Assembly (NCBI GenBank): GCA_028874795.1
Contig: JAPPHT010000056.1
Span: forward strand, 124,001 to 188,000
Direction of reading: 5' to 3'
DNA length: 64,000 nucleotides
Source of the DNA: Chloroflexota bacterium
GTDB taxonomy: Bacteria > Chloroflexota > Dehalococcoidia > Lucifugimonadales > Australimonadaceae
In this document: positions 34,656 through 54,978 of the stretch, piece by piece
How positions within the stretch are numbered: the first letter of the stretch is position 1
How the letters are laid out: every line of letters begins with the position of its first letter
The notes under the pieces: model-generated
Seen by the model: only the letters and a program-made list of their open reading frames with translations
Databases searched by the model: none
Told to the model about the DNA's origin: nothing
Made by a program: the position numbers and the translations under genes

Positions 34656-35342
34656 CTAGCACTCTTTCCCGCCACCGCCACTACACATCCGCACCAACTG
34701 GTCAGTCAGCTCAGAGAACCGGCTGAACGCCAGCGCGCCGGATCGGGCTACGAAGGGTGACGGGCCGTTCGGCGCGAGAACGAGGGTCGTCATGCCCGCC
34801 GACAGCGCGCCCTGCACGCCGGTGTCGCTGTCCTCCACAACGACGCAGCGCGCCACATCCACGCCCATCACTCGCGAGGCCTGTAGGAAAAGGTCGGGGG
34901 CGGGCTTGCCCTGCGGCACGTCGCACCCGCTGAATACCCGGTCGCCGAAGTAGTCGAGCAGCCCAACCGCACTGAGTTTCGCGACGGTTTCCTCAACCGT
35001 TCCGTTACTCGCGACGCACATGGGCGCGCCGGTCTCGGCGACGCTTCGGACCGCTTCCGATGCACCGGGCATGGTCGTGAGTTCGGTATGGCATGCGGCG
35101 ATCTTCACCGCTTGGAGACGCTGCGGCAGATCGTTCGGTATTACGACTCCGAACCGGCGGGAGAGGTCGGCGTACATCTCGAGGTCCAGCACGCCGCGAT
35201 AGCGTTCGTGGTCCTGTTCGGTGAGCGCGATACCGAGTTCGGCGGCCATCTCATCGGCGATGCGCTTCCACACCGCCTCGTTGTCCACCAACACGCCGTC
35301 GCAGTCGAAGATCACGAGGCGGTCATGCATAGGTTGGTCCAC
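34656..35342 (-). CDS. HAD-superfamily phosphatase, beta-phosphoglucomutase/phosphatase-like
   Basis: A 228-residue cytoplasmic HAD hydrolase with motif I FDCDGVLVDNE, motif II ASNGT, motif III Lys in PQGKPAPD and motif IV VVEDSDTG. The helical cap between motifs I and II is the C1 type of phosphoglycolate phosphatase and beta-phosphoglucomutase. Nearly all such enzymes dephosphorylate small metabolites. GTG 35342 follows directly on the stop of the upstream Clp_N fragment with GGAG four bases before; ATG 35330 is an alternative. Confidence 0.85.
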   Translation of the reverse strand: MDQPMHDRLVIFDCDGVLVDNEAVWKRIADEMAAELGIALTEQDHERYRGVLDLEMYADLSRRFGVVIPNDLPQRLQAVKIAACHTELTTMPGASEAVRSVAETGAPMCVASNGTVEETVAKLSAVGLLDYFGDRVFSGCDVPQGKPAPDLFLQASRVMGVDVARCVVVEDSDTGVQGALSAGMTTLVLAPNGPSPFVARSGALAFSRFSELTDQLVRMCSGGGGKEC

Positions 35343-35504
35343 TCACTCCGTCAGCTTGAGCAGTTCCCAGATCTCGTCGCGGGCGGCGCGAGCGTTCGCG
35401 TAGTCGACGCCGAAGTACGCCATCGTGCGGCAGCCCATCCCCTCCGGGATGGCGAGCAACCCCAGCAGGATGTGCTCCGTCCCGATGGGATAGGCCGAGT
35501 GGAA
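35343..35504 (-). pseudogene. Clp N-domain fragment
   Basis: Read in a frame different from the upstream methyltransferase, these bases encode [20 protein letters not shown] and end in WELLKLTE-stop. IGTEHxLLGLL is the hallmark of the Clp_N repeat of ClpA/ClpC and related proteins. Only the second half of one repeat is present, and no start codon or ribosome-binding site is seen. It directly abuts the broken end of the homocysteine methyltransferase gene. It appears to be the C-terminal remnant of a Clp_N protein left by a deletion. Confidence 0.65.
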
Positions 35505-35511
35505 CTGCCCG

Positions 35512-36150
35512 CGTGTGCATGATGAACGCGACCTCGATCCCGGAGAGATCGATGCGACGCAGCGACTCCTCCAGAGGTTCGTCCGGCTGGTTCAGGAGCG
35601 TGAGGTTGCCTCCTTCGTCCGCTATGCAGGAGAAGCCCGCCCACACCGGCAGGCCCGCAGTCGCAGCGGCGGCGAGTTCGACCCTTGCGCGCTCGACGTG
35701 CGACAGCATCTCCACCATGAGCAGGTCCACGCCCGCGTCCGCGAGTATGCGCGCCTGCGAGGCGAGCGCCCAGTCCTCCTCCGCCGGAGCCACCTTGCCC
35801 TCTGGCCCCCGATAGCTGGTCGTCGTCATGCAGCCGGCCACGGGGAGCGGCCGCTCCACTCCAGCGCGTTCGCGCGCCTGCAGGGCGAGCATCACCGCAG
35901 CGCGGTTCAGCTCATCCTCGCGTCCGTGTATCCCGTGCGCGGCCAGACTCAGCTCCGTGCAACCGAACGTATTGGTGCTGATGACGTCCGCGCCCGCCGC
36001 GATGAAGTCTGCATGGATAGCGCGGAGCGTGTCCGGCATCTCGGCGTTCGCGAGGTTCGCCCATGCCCCCAGCGAGCCGCCGCGACGCGCCACCTCCGTG
36101 CCGATGCCGCCGTCGAGCACGGCGTAGCCGCCGTCCGCGAGCCGCCCCAT
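35512..36150 (-). pseudogene. Homocysteine S-methyltransferase-like gene, 3'-truncated
   Basis: The first 213 codons match the homocysteine methyltransferase barrel: [62 protein letters not shown] and [10 protein letters not shown]. After IMHT the frame continues to 35323 as a meaningless Arg/Pro-rich tail, while the Clp_N fragment begins in another frame. The missing part is the last third of the fold, including the GGCC Zn-ligand motif, so the protein cannot bind Zn normally. The start is set at ATG 36150, with a TAGCAT -10-like sequence 13 bases upstream; GTG 36180 is an alternative. Confidence 0.7.
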
Positions 36151-36255: not shown

Positions 36256-38331
36256 ATGACGTTCACCCTTCCCTTTCGTGTCCTGTGCTTTGCGCTGCTC
36301 GTCGCCGCTGGCGCCGTCCTTGCAGCGGCCTGCGCGCCCGAGCCGACGCCGACCCCCATTCCCACTTCGACACCCACGCCTACGGCCACTCCGACCGCTA
36401 CTCCCACGCCAACACCTACGCCCACGCCGACACCTACCGGCACGCCTACTCCCACTCCAACGCCTACGCTCACACCCACTCCCACCAGCACGCCGACACC
36501 AACCCCTTCGCCAACCGCCACACCGACGCCTACCGCGACTCCCACCCCGGCGCCCACCAGCACACCCACGCCTACTCCCAGGCCCACCAGCACGCCGACG
36601 CCAACGCCTCTCCCACTCAGCGTGGCGCTCACACCCACGTCTCCGACCGAGATGAAGGTCGAGTGGGCGCTGAATGTCGCCGGCGGCGCGCAACCGGTGG
36701 ACCTCTTCCGGGACGGCGAGCGGATAGCGAGCAACTCAGCCGGCGTTACGTCCTACACGGACGGCGGCCTCAGCGCGAATACGCGCTACACGTACGAGGC
36801 CGTCGCGACGCAGGTGGGCCTCTCCGCAGAGGCTACCGCGGCCACGCTCGCCTACCCTCCGCAGGGCGGGCACACGCGGAGCGTCCACTGGACCGGCTTC
36901 GACTTCTACATCGTCGACGAGCGCAACCCGGACCACACGGAGTACCGCGTCACCCTGAGGGGCCCCGCCACCGACGTCTCCGACTGGAGCAGCGACAAGT
37001 GCGTGGTGTACGACTCCCTCCCCCGCGTGAGTGGCTTCCAGCGATACTCCTACACCATCACCGCGAGGAACCTGGACGGGGTCGAGACGCAGGCCGCCAA
37101 CCGCCGAGTGGGAGAGGCAGGAACGGGGCCCGAGTGGGTCGTGACCCGGGGTTACGCGTCCAATGACGACCCGTGGGTGGCCGCCAGGATCGCTGACCTC
37201 CAGGCCATCTATGGGCTAACCGATGCCGCGGTCGAGTGGCTCACCAACGGGGTCCGCGTGGAGCGGCCGCACGCAACGCGCGCCGGTCAGACGTACCTGG
37301 AGCCCGGGTACGCAGGGTTCATCGGCGGAGCCCTGGTGAGGATTGGCCACAGCAATCCCGAAGCCCTGATGCACGAGGCGATGCACGCCTTCTGGGAGTC
37401 GTGGAACGGGTGGCCGGAGCCGTGCGACGAGATGAACTTCTACACGTTCAAGCGCGACCAGGCCCAGTTCATCCTTGACTTCCGCGAGCACGACCGTACC
37501 GGAGGACCGAACCCCTGGGAGGCGTGGCGCCCCTACTACGACGAAGCCGTTGCATCGCTTCAGGCCGACATAGAGAACGGCAGGAGAAATGGGAGGGTTG
37601 GGCAGAGCGAGAACGCCTGGCAGATACTCGCAGATCGCGACTTCTACAAGGTCCCCGACTTCTACCACCGGTACGAGACGGTATTCGCGTACTACGCGTC
37701 CGACAGCCTGTCACTCATGCCCCCGCCGCTCCGGAAGTACTTCGAAGGCTTCCTGAAGGAGGGAGAACCCACAACGTGGGCACAGGAGGTCAGTTGGTAC
37801 TCGCGGCTCAGGAGCGACGACCGGCCCGGCGGGCCCTCGGACCACCGCCTCTGGAACATGGCATTCCTGACGAGGGACGTGCTCTATCACTCTCCCCATC
37901 TGGGCGGGTCAGGCTCGACGACGCGCATCCCCGAACCCTTGAGGACAGCGCTGAGGAACGCCGACCGTCAGCGTCTCGTGGACTTCCTGAATACCCTCGA
38001 GATACTGGACTGGGAGGGCAACGAGCACTACAGCTTCGACGCGAACGCCGGCTTCTGGCAGAACTACGTGAGGGACCACCTGTACAGCAGCCAGATCTAC
38101 CTGGACGAACTCTCCCCCGACATCGGCATCGAGCTGAACCCGGCCGTGTGGACAGCCGTCAAGGACATGATGGACCGGATGGTGTCGGACCTCTTCTGTG
38201 GAAGAAGGACCCCAGCCGAGATGCGCGGCATCATCTCGGGCGCGTCCGGCCTGTCCGCGCTCCAGAAGACGGCGTTCGACAAGATGGTCGACGTCTACGA
38301 GCAGCGCAGCGACTTCGGGTGCCTGCGCTGA
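36256..38331 (+). CDS. Surface lipoprotein with Thr-Pro stalk, FN3-like domain and HExxH motif
   Basis: A 691-residue exported lipoprotein. The signal ends VLAAAC (lipidated C26). Residues about 28-122 are an almost pure Thr-Pro stalk ([20 protein letters not shown] and similar). Residues about 125-205 look like a fibronectin type III domain ([39 protein letters not shown]). A large helical domain follows with H373-E-A-M-H377, the zinc-protease signature, although the family is not recognised. The long stalk would hold a catalytic domain outside the cell wall layer. Start ATG 36256 is chosen because the signal peptide begins there. Confidence 0.68.
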
Positions 38332-42161: not shown

Positions 42162-42191
42162 TTGACCCTCCGACCGCTCCCGCCCTACTCT
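42162..42191 (+). promoter_or_regulatory. Promoter of the first tandem Rieske gene
   Basis: TTGACC (42162-42167), an 18-bp spacer and TACTCT (42186-42191), followed by TACGCTACGCAC. The same layout and nearly the same -10 surroundings (GCCCTACTCTTACGC) occur at 45259-45288. Confidence 0.6.
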
Positions 42192-42232
42192 TACGCTACG
42201 CACAATCGCGCTCGCGAGGAGAACGACCCGAC

Positions 42233-43564
42233 ATGCTCAGCGTCAAGGCGAACCAGGAACTCACGCAGGTCGGCCCCGGCACGCCCATGGGCGAGCTCAT
42301 GCGCCGCTACTGGCACCCCATCGCCGGGGCGGCGGAGTTGGACGACCGACCCACGAAGCCGGTGCGCCTGCTCGGCGAGGACCTCGTCCTCTACAAGGAC
42401 AGGTCCGGCACGCTCGGTCTCATCGAGCGCTTCTGCCCCCATCGCAGGGTCGACCTCTCCTACGGCATCCCGGAGGAGCACGGCCTCCGCTGCATGTACC
42501 ACGGCTGGATGATGGACGAGACCGGACAGTGTATCGAGCAGCCCTTCGAGGAGACCGTCCACCCGGACGGACGCTTCAAGGAGAAGGTCAAGATCGCCGG
42601 CTACCCCGTCGAGGTCGCAGGCGGGCTCGTGTTCGCCTACATGGGCCCTCAGCCGGTGCCGTTCCTCCCGCTCTGGGAGCCGCTGGTCTGGGACAACGCG
42701 GTGCGCGACATCGCCATCGCCCACCTGCCGTGTAACTGGCTCCAGTGCCAGGAGAACTCCCTGGACCCCGTCCACGTCGAGTGGTCGCACTCCTACTGGG
42801 GGCAGTACGTCCAGCAGGGGCCCGGTTTCAAGGGCGCCCTCCTCGACCTGCCGACGCACCAGAAGATCGGGTTCGACATCTTCGAGCACGGCGTCGTCAA
42901 GCGGCGCGTGTTCAAGGGCTACACCGAGGAAGACGACGACTGGAAGCACGGCCACCCGGTGTTCGTGCCGAACATCCTGCTCGTCGGCTCGGAGGTCTCG
43001 GTGACGATGCAGTTCCGCGTCCCGATCGACGACGAGAACACGCTGCACGTGTCGCTGTACACGTGGCGAGGCGCACCTGGTCAGCCGGTGCCGGTGCAGG
43101 AGTCGGTCCCCTATCGAGAGGTGCCGCTGCTCGACGAGAACGGCAACTGGATCGTGGACGTGGTCTTCAATCAAGACTACACGACCTGGGTGACGCAGGG
43201 GCGCGTTGCCAAGCGCCATCTCGAGCACCTCGGCGAGTCCGACCGCGGCATCATCCTCTACCGCAAGCTGCTGCAGGAGCAGATGGCCATCGTCGCCGAC
43301 GGCGGCGACCCGATGAACGTCTTCCGCACTCCTCTGCCCGAGGGCGGCATCGTCGCACCGCTGGAGCAGGTGAAGTTCGGCATGAAGCGCGCCAGGAAGT
43401 ACATCCCCGGCGAGGCCGGCTACTCCCGCGACGGCGACCTCATCAACCAGGTGCTGCAGACGTGGGAGGACCTCCCGGACCGCGCCCCCGCGGAATCGGA
43501 GGACGAGATCAAGGAACGCGTCGGCGGCGCCGTCGAGGGCATCAAGGACAACTGGCCGCTGTAG
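42233..43564 (+). CDS. Rieske oxygenase alpha subunit, tandem copy 1
   Basis: 443 residues. Rieske ligands C68-x-H70 (CPHRR) and C87-x2-H90 (CMYHGW); mononuclear iron ligands H181 and H186 with the bridging D178 (DPVHVEWSH). Residues 1 to about 170 are close to identical with copies 2-4, including many silent sites, whereas the catalytic C-terminal half differs strongly (LYTWRGAPGQPVP, and an extra acidic tail EDEIKERVGGAVEGI). The first catalytic region has WSH where the other copies have WLH. The four copies probably act on different but related substrates. Confidence 0.9.
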   Translation: MLSVKANQELTQVGPGTPMGELMRRYWHPIAGAAELDDRPTKPVRLLGEDLVLYKDRSGTLGLIERFCPHRRVDLSYGIPEEHGLRCMYHGWMMDETGQCIEQPFEETVHPDGRFKEKVKIAGYPVEVAGGLVFAYMGPQPVPFLPLWEPLVWDNAVRDIAIAHLPCNWLQCQENSLDPVHVEWSHSYWGQYVQQGPGFKGALLDLPTHQKIGFDIFEHGVVKRRVFKGYTEEDDDWKHGHPVFVPNILLVGSEVSVTMQFRVPIDDENTLHVSLYTWRGAPGQPVPVQESVPYREVPLLDENGNWIVDVVFNQDYTTWVTQGRVAKRHLEHLGESDRGIILYRKLLQEQMAIVADGGDPMNVFRTPLPEGGIVAPLEQVKFGMKRARKYIPGEAGYSRDGDLINQVLQTWEDLPDRAPAESEDEIKERVGGAVEGIKDNWPL

Positions 43565-43588
43565 GAGGCAACCGCAACGACCAACCAG

Positions 43589-43619
43589 GAGAGGCGTCCC
43601 AAGGGCGCCTCTCTTTTTG
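43589..43619 (+). terminator. Rho-independent terminator after Rieske copy 1
   Basis: GAGAGGCG-TCCCAAGGG-CGCCTCTC followed by TTTTTGT (43589-43620). It is a textbook stem with a T-tract, so copies 1 and 2 are separate transcription units. Confidence 0.85.
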
Positions 43620-43684
43620 TCTTGTGCCAGCTACTGCGCCGCAGCCGGCGCGGGTGGGCAAGGCCAATGCTTTGCGCCATGCGG

Positions 43685-43690
43685 TACAAT
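43685..43690 (+). promoter_or_regulatory. -10 element of Rieske copy 2
   Basis: TACAAT 36 bp before ATG 43726, with AAGGAGG close to the start codon. No good -35 stands at the usual distance, so an activator may be needed. Confidence 0.4.
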
Positions 43691-43725
43691 CCCCGCCAGG
43701 GCACGGATCCCAAGGAGGCCACTCG

Positions 43726-44994
43726 ATGCTGAGCGTACAGGAGAACGAGCAACTCACCCAGGTGGGCCCGGGCACGCCGATGGGCGAGTTGATGCGCCGC
43801 TACTGGCACCCCATCGCCGCCGCTGCGGAGCTCGTCGACCGCCCCACCAAGCCGGTCCGCCTGCTCGGCGAGGACCTCGTCCTCTACAGGGACAGGTCCG
43901 GCACGCTCGGACTCATCGAACGCTTCTGCCCACACCGCCGCGTCGACCTCTCCTACGGCATACCCGAGGAACACGGCCTCCGCTGCATGTACCACGGCTG
44001 GATGATGGACGAGACCGGCCAGTGCATCGAGCAGCCCTTCGAGGAGACCGTGCACCCGGACGGGCGCTTCAAGGAGAAGGTGAAGGTCGCGGGCTACCCC
44101 GTGCGCGAGATGGCCGGGCTTGTGTTCGCCTACATGGGCCCGCAGCCGACGCCACTCCTTCCCCGGTGGGAGCACCTGCTCTGGGAGAACGCCGTCCGCG
44201 ACATCGCCATCACGGAGATCCCCTGCAACTGGCTGCAGTGCCAGGAGAACTCGCTCGACCCCGTCCACGTCGAGTGGCTCCACGCCTACATGGGCGCCTA
44301 CCGCAACACGGACCGCATCGCCAGGCAGCAGCAGGGGTCGGCCCGCAGGCACCAGAAGATCGGGTTCAACGAGTTCGAGTTCGGCATCATCAAGCGCCGC
44401 ATCCTCGAAGGGAAGGACGAGACCGACGACGAGTGGGCGGAGGGTCACCCCGTCCTCTTCCCGAACATCCTGCTCGTCGGCAACGAGGCGCGGGCCACGT
44501 TCCAGTTCCGCGTGCCGGTGGACGACACCAACACCCTCCACGTCTCCATCTATAACTACCGAGCCGCGCCCGGCGCAGCCGCTCCGACGCAGGACGTCAT
44601 CCCCCACCGCTACGTTCCCCTCAAGGACGACGAGGGGCGCTTCATCGTGGACTGGACGTTCAACCAGGACTACATGGCCTGGGCGACGCAGGGCCCCATC
44701 GCCAAGCGTCACCTGGAGCGGCTCGGGCAGTCGGACGTCGGCATCATCCTCTTCCGCAAGCAGTTGCAGCGGAACATCGCTGTGATGCAGGACGGCGGCG
44801 ACCCGATGAACGTCTTCCGCGGGAGCGACCTCGGCCTGCTGCATGCGCCGGTGGAGAAGGTGAAGTTCGGCGTGCGGGCGCAGGCGCGCTACATCCCGCC
44901 CGAGGCGGGCGACACCCCGGCGGTGCCCCAGATCGAGGAGGTCATGGGCACCTGGGTCGACTACCTCGGCGAGGAGGCCACGCTCGGGCGGTAG
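43726..44994 (+). CDS. Rieske oxygenase alpha subunit, tandem copy 2
   Basis: 422 residues with C68/H70, C87/H90 and the DPVHVEWLH iron site. The Rieske half is nearly the same as in the neighbours; the catalytic half has its own stretch around residue 195-205 (NTDRIARQQQGSARRHQKIG) and FEFGIIKRRILEGK, a region that lines the substrate entrance in such enzymes. It is followed after 6 bp by a DUF2283 gene, its only likely operon partner. Confidence 0.9.
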   Translation: MLSVQENEQLTQVGPGTPMGELMRRYWHPIAAAAELVDRPTKPVRLLGEDLVLYRDRSGTLGLIERFCPHRRVDLSYGIPEEHGLRCMYHGWMMDETGQCIEQPFEETVHPDGRFKEKVKVAGYPVREMAGLVFAYMGPQPTPLLPRWEHLLWENAVRDIAITEIPCNWLQCQENSLDPVHVEWLHAYMGAYRNTDRIARQQQGSARRHQKIGFNEFEFGIIKRRILEGKDETDDEWAEGHPVLFPNILLVGNEARATFQFRVPVDDTNTLHVSIYNYRAAPGAAAPTQDVIPHRYVPLKDDEGRFIVDWTFNQDYMAWATQGPIAKRHLERLGQSDVGIILFRKQLQRNIAVMQDGGDPMNVFRGSDLGLLHAPVEKVKFGVRAQARYIPPEAGDTPAVPQIEEVMGTWVDYLGEEATLGR

Positions 44995-45000
44995 GATTCG

Positions 45001-45225
45001 ATGGAAGCAGAGGTTCACTATTTCGCAGACTCGGACACTCTGTCTGTCTGGACGGGGAAGCCTGCGGCAGAGGCCGACGAGATTGCGGATGGGATAATCG
45101 TGGACCTGGACTCCGACGGTAACGTGGTCGGCTTCACCATCGAACACGCGACCGTCCTGCTTCGCCCGATGCTCAAGGCAAACCTCAAGGCCCCTGCAGC
45201 AACCTCCTCGCGTTCTCAGAAGTAG
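45001..45225 (+). CDS. DUF2283-family small protein
   Basis: A 74-residue protein with the DUF2283 pattern: VHYFADSDTLSVWTG, then EADEIADGIIVDLDSDGNVVGFTIEHAT. These small beta-sheet proteins often sit beside toxin-like DUF4258 genes or stand alone, and their role is unknown. No DUF4258 partner is seen here. The gene begins 6 bp after Rieske copy 2 without a clear ribosome-binding site, so translation is probably coupled. Confidence 0.75.
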   Translation: MEAEVHYFADSDTLSVWTGKPAAEADEIADGIIVDLDSDGNVVGFTIEHATVLLRPMLKANLKAPAATSSRSQK

Positions 45226-45258
45226 CGGGATACAGCGCGTCTCGCGCTGCCCCTGCGC

Positions 45259-45288
45259 TTGACCCGCGCGCACGCTCCGCCCTACTCT
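45259..45288 (+). promoter_or_regulatory. Promoter of Rieske copy 3
   Basis: TTGACC (45259-45264), 18-bp spacer, TACTCT (45283-45288), then TACGCCACGCAC. It duplicates the promoter at 42162-42191, including the 18-bp spacing. Confidence 0.6.
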
Positions 45289-45325
45289 TACGCCACGCAC
45301 ACAGGCACGCGAGGAAGGTGCGCGC

Positions 45326-46567
45326 ATGCTCAGCGTCACGGCTAACGAGGAACTCACGCAGGTCGGCGCAGGCACGCCCATGGGCGAGCTGATGCGCCGC
45401 TACTGGCATCCCATCGCAGCCGCCGGCGAACTCCTCGAGCGCCCCACCAAGGCCGTCCGCGTCCTCGGCGAGGACCTCGTCCTCTACAAGGACAGGTCCG
45501 GCACGCTCGGACTCATCGAACGCTTCTGCCCACACCGCCGCGTGGACCTCTCCTACGGCATCCCCGAGGAGCACGGCCTCCGCTGCATGTACCACGGCTG
45601 GATGATGGACGAGACCGGACAGTGCATCGAGCAACCCTTCGAGGAGACGGTGCACCCCGACGGACGCTTCAAGGAGAAGGTGAAGGTCGCGGGCTACCCC
45701 GTGCAGGAGATGAGCGGGCTGGTGTTCGCCTACCTCGGCCCGCAACCGGCGCCGCTGCTGCCGCTCTGGGAGCCGCTCGCCGCCGACAACGTGGCCTGCG
45801 ACATCGCTCTCACTGAGTTGCCGTGCAACTGGCTCCAGTGCCAGGAGAACTCGCTGGACCCGGTGCACACGGAGTGGCTCCACTCCTACTGGACCCGCTA
45901 CCAGCAGATGGCCGCGGGCAGACCCGTCGACGTGCGCGGCGAGTCCGCGCCCCACGAGCGCATACGGTTCGAACTGTTCGACCACGGCATCATCAAGCGC
46001 CGCGTCCTGCGAGGCCTGGGTGAGGAGCACGACCTCTGGAAGGTGGGACACCCCATCCTGTTCCCCAACATCCTGCAGGTTGGGTCGCCACAGAAGATCA
46101 CGATGCAGTTCCGCGTCCCTGTCGACGACGAGAACACGCTGCACGTATCCATCTACATCTTCCGCGCAGCCGACGGCGCAGTCGTGCCCCGGCAGGACCC
46201 CGTCCCCTACTACTACAACCCGCTGGTGGGTGAGGACGGGCGGTTCATCACCGACGTTACCTTCAACCAGGACTACATGGCATGGGTCAGCCAGGGGCCG
46301 GTGGCCCGCCGCGACCTCGAGAAACTCGGCGAGTCCGACAGGGGCATCTTCTTCTTCCGCAAGATGCTGAAGGAGCAGATGGATATCGTCGCGGACGGCG
46401 GCGAGCCGATGAACGTGTTCCACGGCGCACCGGGAGAGCCGGTCACGCTGCCGGTGGAACCGAGCCGGGGGTACGTGAACGGCGCTCCCCGCCGGTACGT
46501 GCCGCAGGAGGCTGGACCCAGCGTCGCTCACGCCGACATCGAGCGCGTGCTGGCCACGTACGCATAA
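45326..46567 (+). CDS. Rieske oxygenase alpha subunit, tandem copy 3
   Basis: 413 residues, the shortest of the set; Rieske ligands C68/H70 and C87/H90 and iron site DPVHTEWLH. Its special stretch near residues 190-215 (TRYQQMAAGRPVDVRGESAP) and HGIIKRRVLRGLGEEHDLW differ from copies 1, 2 and 4. The promoter resembles that of copy 1, but the Rieske half is closest to copies 2 and 4 at the DNA level. Copy 4 begins 38 bp after its stop with its own ribosome-binding site, so copies 3 and 4 may be co-transcribed. Confidence 0.9.
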   Translation: MLSVTANEELTQVGAGTPMGELMRRYWHPIAAAGELLERPTKAVRVLGEDLVLYKDRSGTLGLIERFCPHRRVDLSYGIPEEHGLRCMYHGWMMDETGQCIEQPFEETVHPDGRFKEKVKVAGYPVQEMSGLVFAYLGPQPAPLLPLWEPLAADNVACDIALTELPCNWLQCQENSLDPVHTEWLHSYWTRYQQMAAGRPVDVRGESAPHERIRFELFDHGIIKRRVLRGLGEEHDLWKVGHPILFPNILQVGSPQKITMQFRVPVDDENTLHVSIYIFRAADGAVVPRQDPVPYYYNPLVGEDGRFITDVTFNQDYMAWVSQGPVARRDLEKLGESDRGIFFFRKMLKEQMDIVADGGEPMNVFHGAPGEPVTLPVEPSRGYVNGAPRRYVPQEAGPSVAHADIERVLATYA

Positions 46568-46605
46568 CACCAGACCACGAATGACCGCATCCGGAGGAAG
46601 GCTTC

Positions 46606-47883
46606 ATGCTCAGCGTCAAGGCTAACGAGGAACTCACGCAGGTCAGCGCAGGCACGCCCATGGGCGAGCTGATGCGACGCTACTGGCACCCCATCGCAGC
46701 AACGGCGGAGCTCGACGAGCGCCCCACCAAGCCGGTCCGCCTGCTCGGCGAGGACCTCGTCCTCTACAGGGACAGGTCCGGCACGCTCGGACTCATCGAG
46801 CGCTTCTGCCCACACCGCCGCGTCGACCTCTCCTACGGCATCCCGGAAGAGCACGGCCTTCGCTGCATGTACCACGGCTGGATGATGGACGAGACCGGGC
46901 AGTGCATCGAGCAGCCCTTCGAAGAGACCGTGCACCCCGACGGGCGCTTCAAGGAGAAGGTGAAGATAGCCGGCTACCCCGTTCAGGAGCTCGGCGGGCT
47001 CATCTTCGCCTACATGGGCCCACAGCCCGCGCCCCTGCTGCCGCGGTGGGAGCAGTTGCTGTGGGACAACGCGGTACGCGAGATCTGCATCTCGGAGCTG
47101 CCGTGCAACTGGCTGCAGTGCCAGGAGAACTCCGTGGACCCCGTCCATAACGAGTGGCTGCACGCCTACTACGGCAACGTCGTCCGCAATGGCGTCCACG
47201 CCCTGCCGGAGCTGCGCGGCACGCACCTCAAGATCGGCTTCGACGTCTTCGAGCACGGCATCATCAAGCGCCGCGTCGAGGCCGGGTACTCGGAGGAGGA
47301 CGACGACTGGAAGGAAGGCCACCCCATCATGTTCCCCAACATCCTCCTGGTGGGCGACGAGGTGCGCTCAACGTTCCAGTTCCGCGTGCCGGTGGACGAC
47401 ACGCACACCTACCACGTCTCCTACTACGCATGGCGCCCCGCGCCGGGCGCTCAGGCTCCCCGCCAGGAGGTCGTCCCCTACCGCTACGTCCCGCTCAAGG
47501 ACGAGAACGACCGCTACATCAACGACATCCTCTTCAACCAGGACTACCTCGCCTGGGTGACGCAGGGCCCGATCGCGAAGCGCCACCTGGAGAAGCTGGG
47601 CGAGTCCGACAAGGGCATCATCCTCTTCCGCAAGCTCCTGCAGGAGCAGGCGAAGCTCGTGGCCGACGGCGGTGACCCCATGAACACCTTCCGGGACCCC
47701 GTGGAGAACGAGTCGATCAGCCTGCCGCTGGAACACGTCAAGTTCGGCAACCGCCGCCGCATGGGCTATGCGCTCGTCGAGGCGGGCGAGCCCGTCGTGG
47801 CGGATGTCGTCAACGAGACGCTGGAGACCTGGGAAGGCATGCGCAGCCTGCGCGGCACCGCAGGAGCCGCCCACGGAGCGTAG
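46606..47883 (+). CDS. Rieske oxygenase alpha subunit, tandem copy 4
   Basis: 425 residues with C68/H70, C87/H90 and DPVHNEWLH. The start region differs from copy 3 by only a few bases over the first 90 (both read ELTQV then AGTPMGELMRRYWHP). The catalytic half contains NVVRNGVHALPELRGTHLK and EAGYSEEDDDWKEGHP, specific to this copy. GGAGGAAGG precedes ATG 46606. It converges on the minus-strand oxygenase at 47893, and the two stop codons are 9 bp apart. Confidence 0.9.
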   Translation: MLSVKANEELTQVSAGTPMGELMRRYWHPIAATAELDERPTKPVRLLGEDLVLYRDRSGTLGLIERFCPHRRVDLSYGIPEEHGLRCMYHGWMMDETGQCIEQPFEETVHPDGRFKEKVKIAGYPVQELGGLIFAYMGPQPAPLLPRWEQLLWDNAVREICISELPCNWLQCQENSVDPVHNEWLHAYYGNVVRNGVHALPELRGTHLKIGFDVFEHGIIKRRVEAGYSEEDDDWKEGHPIMFPNILLVGDEVRSTFQFRVPVDDTHTYHVSYYAWRPAPGAQAPRQEVVPYRYVPLKDENDRYINDILFNQDYLAWVTQGPIAKRHLEKLGESDKGIILFRKLLQEQAKLVADGGDPMNTFRDPVENESISLPLEHVKFGNRRRMGYALVEAGEPVVADVVNETLETWEGMRSLRGTAGAAHGA

Positions 47884-53615: not shown

Positions 53616-53647
53616 TTGACCCTTGACGTTGCGCAGATTGCTATAAT
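53616..53647 (+). promoter_or_regulatory. Promoter of the Rieske gene at 53695
   Basis: A consensus TATAAT (53642-53647) with an upstream TG (TGCTATAAT) forms an extended -10. Two overlapping -35-like hexamers, TTGACC (53616) and TTGACG (53623), lie 20 and 13 bp away, neither at the ideal distance. This may be a regulated or extended -10 promoter. Confidence 0.5.
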
Positions 53648-53694
53648 CCCGCCGCAGGACAGAGCAAATCCAGCAGCACAAGGAGAGAGACCTC

Positions 53695-54978
53695 ATGCTG
53701 ACGCAGGAAGCGAACGACCGCTACACCCGGGTCGGCCCCGGCACGCCGATGGGCGAGCTGATGCGCCGCTACTGGCATCCCGTCGCCGCCGTCTCCCAGA
53801 TGAACGACAAGTGGACGATGAAGGTCCGCCTGCTCGGCGAAGACCTCATCCTCTACAAGGACCGCTCCGGCACCTTCGGCCTCATGGAGCCGCACTGCGC
53901 CCACCGTCGCATGAACATGATCTACGGCATCCCGGAGGAGCACGGCCTGCGCTGCCCGTACCACGGCTGGCTGTACGACGAGACGGGGCAGTGCATCGAG
54001 CAGCCGTACGAGGAGACGGAGGACCCGGAGGCGCGGTTCAAGGACAAGATCCAGATGAAGGCGTACCCGGTGGAGCAGAAGGCCGGACTGCTGTTCGCCT
54101 ACCTCGGTCCCACGCCCGTGCCGCTCATCCCCAACTACGACGTCTTCTCCGCGACCGGCGTCCTGCGCGACATCGGCTATGCCATGCTGCCGTGCAACTG
54201 GCTGCAGTGCCAGGAGAACTCGCTGGACCCGGTGCACCTGGAGTGGCTGCACGTCGCGTGGGCCAACTTCATCCGCGAGATGAACGGCGACAAGGAGCGC
54301 CGCACCCGGTGGCCGCACAAGGTCATCCACTTCGACGCCTTCGAGCACGGCATCATCAAGCGCCGCATCTGGGAGGGCGGCTCCGAAGAGGACACCGAGT
54401 GGAAGGACGGCCACCCCATCGTCTTCCCCAACTACCTGCGCCAGGGCGGCGATGGCTTCAACGTCGCGGACGGCACCTACCGGGGCAGCTTCTCGATGGG
54501 CCCTGCGTTCCAGATCCGCACCCCCATCGACGACTACAACACCGCCCACTGGTGGGTTGCCTGCTACCCGATGATCGAGGGCGACGTCGAGCAGACGCCC
54601 GAGGAGGTCCCCTTCTACCGCCCGCCGGTGCCGATGCTGGACGAGAACGACCAGCCGGTCTACCCGGAGTTGCGCAGCAACTCCTCGCAGGACCCCGCGG
54701 CGTGGATCACCCAAGGCGACATCGCGGACCGCACCGGCGAGCACCTGGGCCGCTCCGACAAGGGCATCATCATGTTCCGTCAGATGCTGGAGGACAACAT
54801 CCGCATCGTCGAGGACGGCGGCGACCCGATGGAGGTCTACCGCGACCCCGCGGAGAACGTCTACATTCCGTTCATGACGGAGCAGCACAACTACGTGGAC
54901 ACCTCCACCCGCCAGGGCGCTGCGACCATGTACTCGCCCATCCTGGATAGGCGGGAGGCCGCAGCCGCGGCCAAGTAG
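53695..54978 (+). CDS. Rieske oxygenase alpha subunit, sixth of the right-hand cluster
   Basis: 427 residues with C68-x-H70 (CAHRR), C87-x2-H90 (CPYHGW) and DPVHLEWLH at the iron site. It shares the GTPMGELMRRYWHPVA start and GIPEEHGLRC with the tandem copies, but is only moderately similar overall and lacks their near-identity. The middle has a long insertion-like stretch (GGDGFNVADGTYRGSFSMGP). It has its own promoter and terminator and precedes an ornithine-cyclodeaminase-like gene. Confidence 0.9.
   Translation: MLTQEANDRYTRVGPGTPMGELMRRYWHPVAAVSQMNDKWTMKVRLLGEDLILYKDRSGTFGLMEPHCAHRRMNMIYGIPEEHGLRCPYHGWLYDETGQCIEQPYEETEDPEARFKDKIQMKAYPVEQKAGLLFAYLGPTPVPLIPNYDVFSATGVLRDIGYAMLPCNWLQCQENSLDPVHLEWLHVAWANFIREMNGDKERRTRWPHKVIHFDAFEHGIIKRRIWEGGSEEDTEWKDGHPIVFPNYLRQGGDGFNVADGTYRGSFSMGPAFQIRTPIDDYNTAHWWVACYPMIEGDVEQTPEEVPFYRPPVPMLDENDQPVYPELRSNSSQDPAAWITQGDIADRTGEHLGRSDKGIIMFRQMLEDNIRIVEDGGDPMEVYRDPAENVYIPFMTEQHNYVDTSTRQGAATMYSPILDRREAAAAAK

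Follow-up and report, generated by a model that had tools for sequence, protein, structure and literature searches.

Methyltransferase and Clp_N gene remnants joined across a probable 1.4-kb deletion in a Chloroflexota genome

At one point in the genome of a Chloroflexota bacterium, the front of a homocysteine S-methyltransferase-family gene runs directly into the back of a Clp_N-domain gene, and the question arises whether this is a fused gene, the scar of a deletion or a spot at which the assembly is wrong. In our study, the locus was analysed in a window of 64,000 nucleotides (the whole stretch of DNA considered here), which was located in contig C79 of the source assembly (G000; 90 contigs, 97% complete), and was compared with five other genomes of the genus (G001-G005). 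With a probability of roughly 0.6, we favour a single deletion of ~1.4 kb, in the lineage or in the sequenced population, as the event that joined the methyltransferase front to the Clp_N back. The features of the locus are collected in Table 1.

Table 1. Features at the junction of the two gene remnants (positions in the window)
Feature	Position	Strand	Remarks
Homocysteine S-methyltransferase-family 5' part, 223 codons	35512..36180	-	Assigned by identity to same-genus orthologs and PF02574
Open frame as now present, 285 aa: methyltransferase N-part and 62 out-of-frame residues	35323..36180	-	Overlaps the HAD start
Putative deletion junction	35508..35512	-	Left flank ...CACACGCGGG, right flank GCAGTTCCAC...
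Clp_N-domain gene 3' end (the stop and the 54 codons ahead of it)	35343..35507	-	In a different frame from the methyltransferase remnant
HAD-family hydrolase gene, intact, next downstream	34656..35342	-	PF00702 95.1 bits, PF13419 86 bits

The PF02574-type frame was found to be normal from 36180 as far as ...EVAFIMHT, with the T codon finishing at 35512; the DNA similarity to the same-genus methyltransferase genes ends at 35512-35508. In the profile search the remnant scored 106 bits, above the cut-off, and only profile positions 2-175 of 283 were covered. Residues 2-223 (3-223 in the comparison with G002) are 83-89% identical to the intact gene in four same-genus genomes, and the identity to the more distant relative G001 is 62%. 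The last 86 codons are missing, the GGCC motif among them; the similarity stops at residue 223, upstream of this C-terminal zinc cysteine pair, and the open frame runs on past 35512 to a stop at 35323 without methyltransferase similarity. A methyltransferase match was present in 52 of the 59 genomes searched (G000 counted in), including all five other genomes of the genus, where the full-length frames have 308-312 residues (309 in G005 and G003, with GGCC). The sequence-only reading, according to which the methyltransferase stops after IMHT without its GGCC motif, is thus borne out by both the profile and the orthologs.

Methyltransferase frames from 20 loci (L012-L030 and L001, with L024 having no residues at the motif sites) were aligned with MAFFT, and the aligned Cys/His positions are taken by us to be the zinc ligands. 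At the C-terminal CC pair, all 19 loci with residues there retain both cysteines, as GGCC or, in two of them, GTCC. Judging from the family, the truncated methyltransferase should be inactive, as it has neither the zinc cysteine pair nor the complete barrel. A separate observation concerns the first zinc cysteine, which in MetH-like members is found as NC (here in L001, L022, L027 and L028), whereas in relatives a His is aligned there (M-H-T/S); this holds for 15 of the 19 loci (MHT, MHS, IHS, FHA), and the window counterpart of the position is 35512-35530. From the alignment, the homocysteine methyltransferase family seems to have a variant in this order in which His takes the place of Cys as a zinc ligand.

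The Clp_N remnant scored 31.6 bits against PF02861 (cut-off 20.7) over profile positions 13-47 of 53. A Clp_N protein in G002, G003, G004 and G005 shares 91-96% identity with its 54 residues, and because of this identity in four same-genus genomes the match is not a chance one; the search in G001 gave no match. The fragment ends (...WELLKLTE) at a TGA at 35345-35343, directly before the GTG of the HAD gene, so the earlier description of a Clp_N piece that runs in another frame to a natural stop just ahead of that gene was accurate. The window covers residues 109-164 of the 164-residue Clp_N protein, about the first 110 codons being gone, and a search for the first part of this protein across G000 did not find it elsewhere. 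There is no complete translatable Clp_N gene, and the sole in-frame start in the remnant leads to 38 residues. The remnant therefore scores above the Pfam cut-off for the Clp amino-terminal domain, but it represents a partial domain whose gene start is lost and whose frame differs from that of the preceding remnant.

Some further features were seen around these genes. Clp_N matches with identical scores lie at C33:927-1079 and C59:146-298 of G000, the latter at a contig end, and this pair is possibly duplicated or an unresolved contig-end repeat in the assembly. A counterpart of the HAD gene occupies the same place in G003, and where G000 and G003 have this gene, G005 (L051 860-1755) carries two small ORFs, namely a 178-aa frame presumably ending in a DUF433-like stretch and a presumably DUF5615-like ORF of 111 aa; this pair is a swapped cassette adjoining Clp_N.

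The sequence-only reading had explained the locus by a deletion that took the end of one gene and the start of another. In support of it, four of the five other genomes of the genus have a methyltransferase gene followed, on one strand, by a Clp_N gene, as in the window; what it had missed is a whole SDR dehydrogenase gene lying between the two. In G001, the methyltransferase and SDR genes were found and no Clp_N match. The window is shorter than the relatives by 1,370 (G004), 1,410 (G005), 1,428 (G002) and 1,429 bp (G003), and the absent block comprises 86 methyltransferase codons, the entire 251-codon SDR gene and ~110 Clp_N codons. The SDR gene (251 aa) adjoins the methyltransferase in all five relatives, its identity to the G005 query being 96-100% in four of them and 90% in G001; the G002 copy has one internal TAA. 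Across G000 the SDR ortholog was not found, the best match being a 77% paralog at C79:9288-10040, and G003, G004 and G005 each have a similar paralog in addition to the ortholog. Relocation of the block within the genome was rejected, since neither the SDR ortholog nor the Clp_N start was found in G000. To either side of the gap, the matches with G005, G004 and G003 follow the same order, the flanks being collinear with relatives over tens of kb. A deletion here would have removed the methyltransferase 3' end, the whole SDR gene and two thirds of a stand-alone Clp_N gene, counted from its 5' end.

The same comparison bears on the reverse order of events, in which the joined remnants are ancestral and the relatives gained the SDR gene and the other gene parts by insertion. 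Nothing was found in favour of this beyond its being, logically, the mirror image of the deletion, and the inserted DNA would need to complete two genes in frame, one at its C-terminus and another at its N-terminus. Moreover, the methyltransferase frame is full length in all five relatives, the more distant G001 included. These frames and the gene order of the relatives refute this reading for practical purposes, and we consider it scarcely credible.

Elsewhere in the window, a TP-repeat (PTPTPT) lipoprotein-like ORF of ~2 kb lies at 36256-38331, between the methyltransferase and an arsM-like methyltransferase gene, and this region gave no blastn match in the G005, G004 and G003 stretches. Several tandem paralogous stretches of ~1.2-1.3 kb were seen at 42180-47883 and 53622-54440, with 71-91% identity to one another's counterparts in relatives; they are apparently a family expanded in tandem. 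The ~5.7 kb between 47883 and 53622 had no match in the G005 stretch.

Across the junction the window reads CACACGCGGGCAGTTCCAC, and at the breakpoints G004 has CACACGCGGGTCCC in the left flank and GAAGCGGAGCAGTTCCAC in the right flank. GCGG (about 4 bp) is common to both flanks, and the window is one base short of a clean GCGG-to-GCGG exchange. A 92-base junction query was matched as a whole in G000 only; its halves (1-40/44 and 40-92) match ~1.4 kb apart in G002-G005, and in G001 only 28 bases were matched, at a different place. The longest word common to the 30-bp flanks is 5-6 bp, the random mean being 4.8-4.9, and 19-62% of random pairs reach that length. No direct repeat of at least 10 bp spanning both breakpoints was present among the 20 largest of the 21 and 22 families listed (L051 and L052). 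A repeat-mediated deletion was rejected, as the flanks have no common word beyond chance. We infer a joining of the ends out of frame with almost no homology, as may occur in illegitimate, end-joining-type recombination.

These breakpoints are also relevant to an assembly or library artefact, in which 1.4 kb was lost through a chimeric read or a misjoin while the organism itself carries three whole genes. Mis-assembly had been the second option of the sequence-only reading; we regard an artefact as doubtful, yet as a contender to be taken seriously. The complete lack of decay in the remnants, the high conservation of the lost SDR gene, which is present in all five relatives, and the division of the assembly into 90 contigs are all in its favour. 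However, assemblers misjoin at words of k-mer length, and any word common to the two breakpoints is too short to mislead a k-mer assembler. This speaks against a misjoin driven by repeats and makes the junction look more like end-joining in the cell than a graph error. The collinear flanks also stand against an artefact, and the absence of the SDR gene and the Clp_N start from every other contig would mean a dropped-out segment, not a rearranged one. On balance, the event probably took place in the cell rather than in the assembler.

The age of the event was approached through dN/dS, calculated over 221 methyltransferase codons in G000 and G002-G005 and over 54 Clp_N codons. For the methyltransferase, the four pairs with G000 gave 0.140, 0.169, 0.182 and 0.187 and the six pairs among G002-G005 gave 0.145-0.220, and the amino-acid changes seen in a single genome came to 4 for G000 and 6, 7, 7 and 7 for the others. 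The Clp_N remnant has 0 amino-acid changes private to G000 in 54 codons, a test which alone has little power. An old pseudogene was rejected, the remnants being without relaxed constraint. Selection should have ceased to protect a Clp_N remnant without its start, and since this remnant is undecayed, either the event happened recently in the history of the genus or the gap is confined to the assembly. Besides the division of the assembly into 90 contigs, the following weighs against a deletion. The remnants are preserved like working genes, so that a real deletion must be very recent, with decay yet to begin in the remnants. Further, the lost SDR gene is conserved at 96-100% in four relatives, which makes its loss a little surprising.

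The preservation could also be read as a sign that a functional product, from the 285-aa frame or as a truncated methyltransferase, is still being produced and selected for. The purifying-type dN/dS of 0.14-0.19 in the pairs with G000 and a frame open through all 285 residues would agree with this, but the out-of-frame Clp_N remnant is equally undecayed, and the lack of decay therefore says 'recent' and not 'selected'. The cysteine pair kept at every alignable locus is lost, and the fused arrangement, whose presence in relatives would have told against the sequence-only reading, was looked for in the five other genomes of the genus and seen in none. A functional product is thus very improbable; a working protein is not to be expected from either remnant, the methyltransferase being without the zinc cysteines and the Clp_N piece without a start.

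Besides the 77% SDR paralog, G000 has one other PF02574 match, which covers the full profile, at C80:73202-74029. It is conceivable, though unlikely, that the deletion is real and tolerated, with these two genes compensating and methyltransferase, SDR and Clp_N being a dispensable functional set. If so, such a set would have been caught at the moment of its loss in a SAR202-type lineage.

Beyond annotation, the significance of the locus is slight. It should be annotated not as a fused gene but as a pair of gene remnants flanking a 1.4-kb deletion, or else as a position at which the assembly needs checking. The relatives have further revealed that the methyltransferase, SDR and stand-alone Clp_N genes sit together in the genus, which the remnants alone could not.

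In comparison to known systems, the frame agrees through residue 223 with the homocysteine S-methyltransferase family (PF02574; MetH N-domain, MmuM, BHMT), whereas the C-terminal region that carries the GGCC zinc cysteines is not there. We regard the locus as an assembly gap or, more likely, as the scar of an ordinary deletion. Like other deletion-generated gene remnants in bacterial genomes, it has collinear flanks, whole genes in relatives and a minimal-homology junction; nothing about it is distinctive, except that its remnants have yet to decay.
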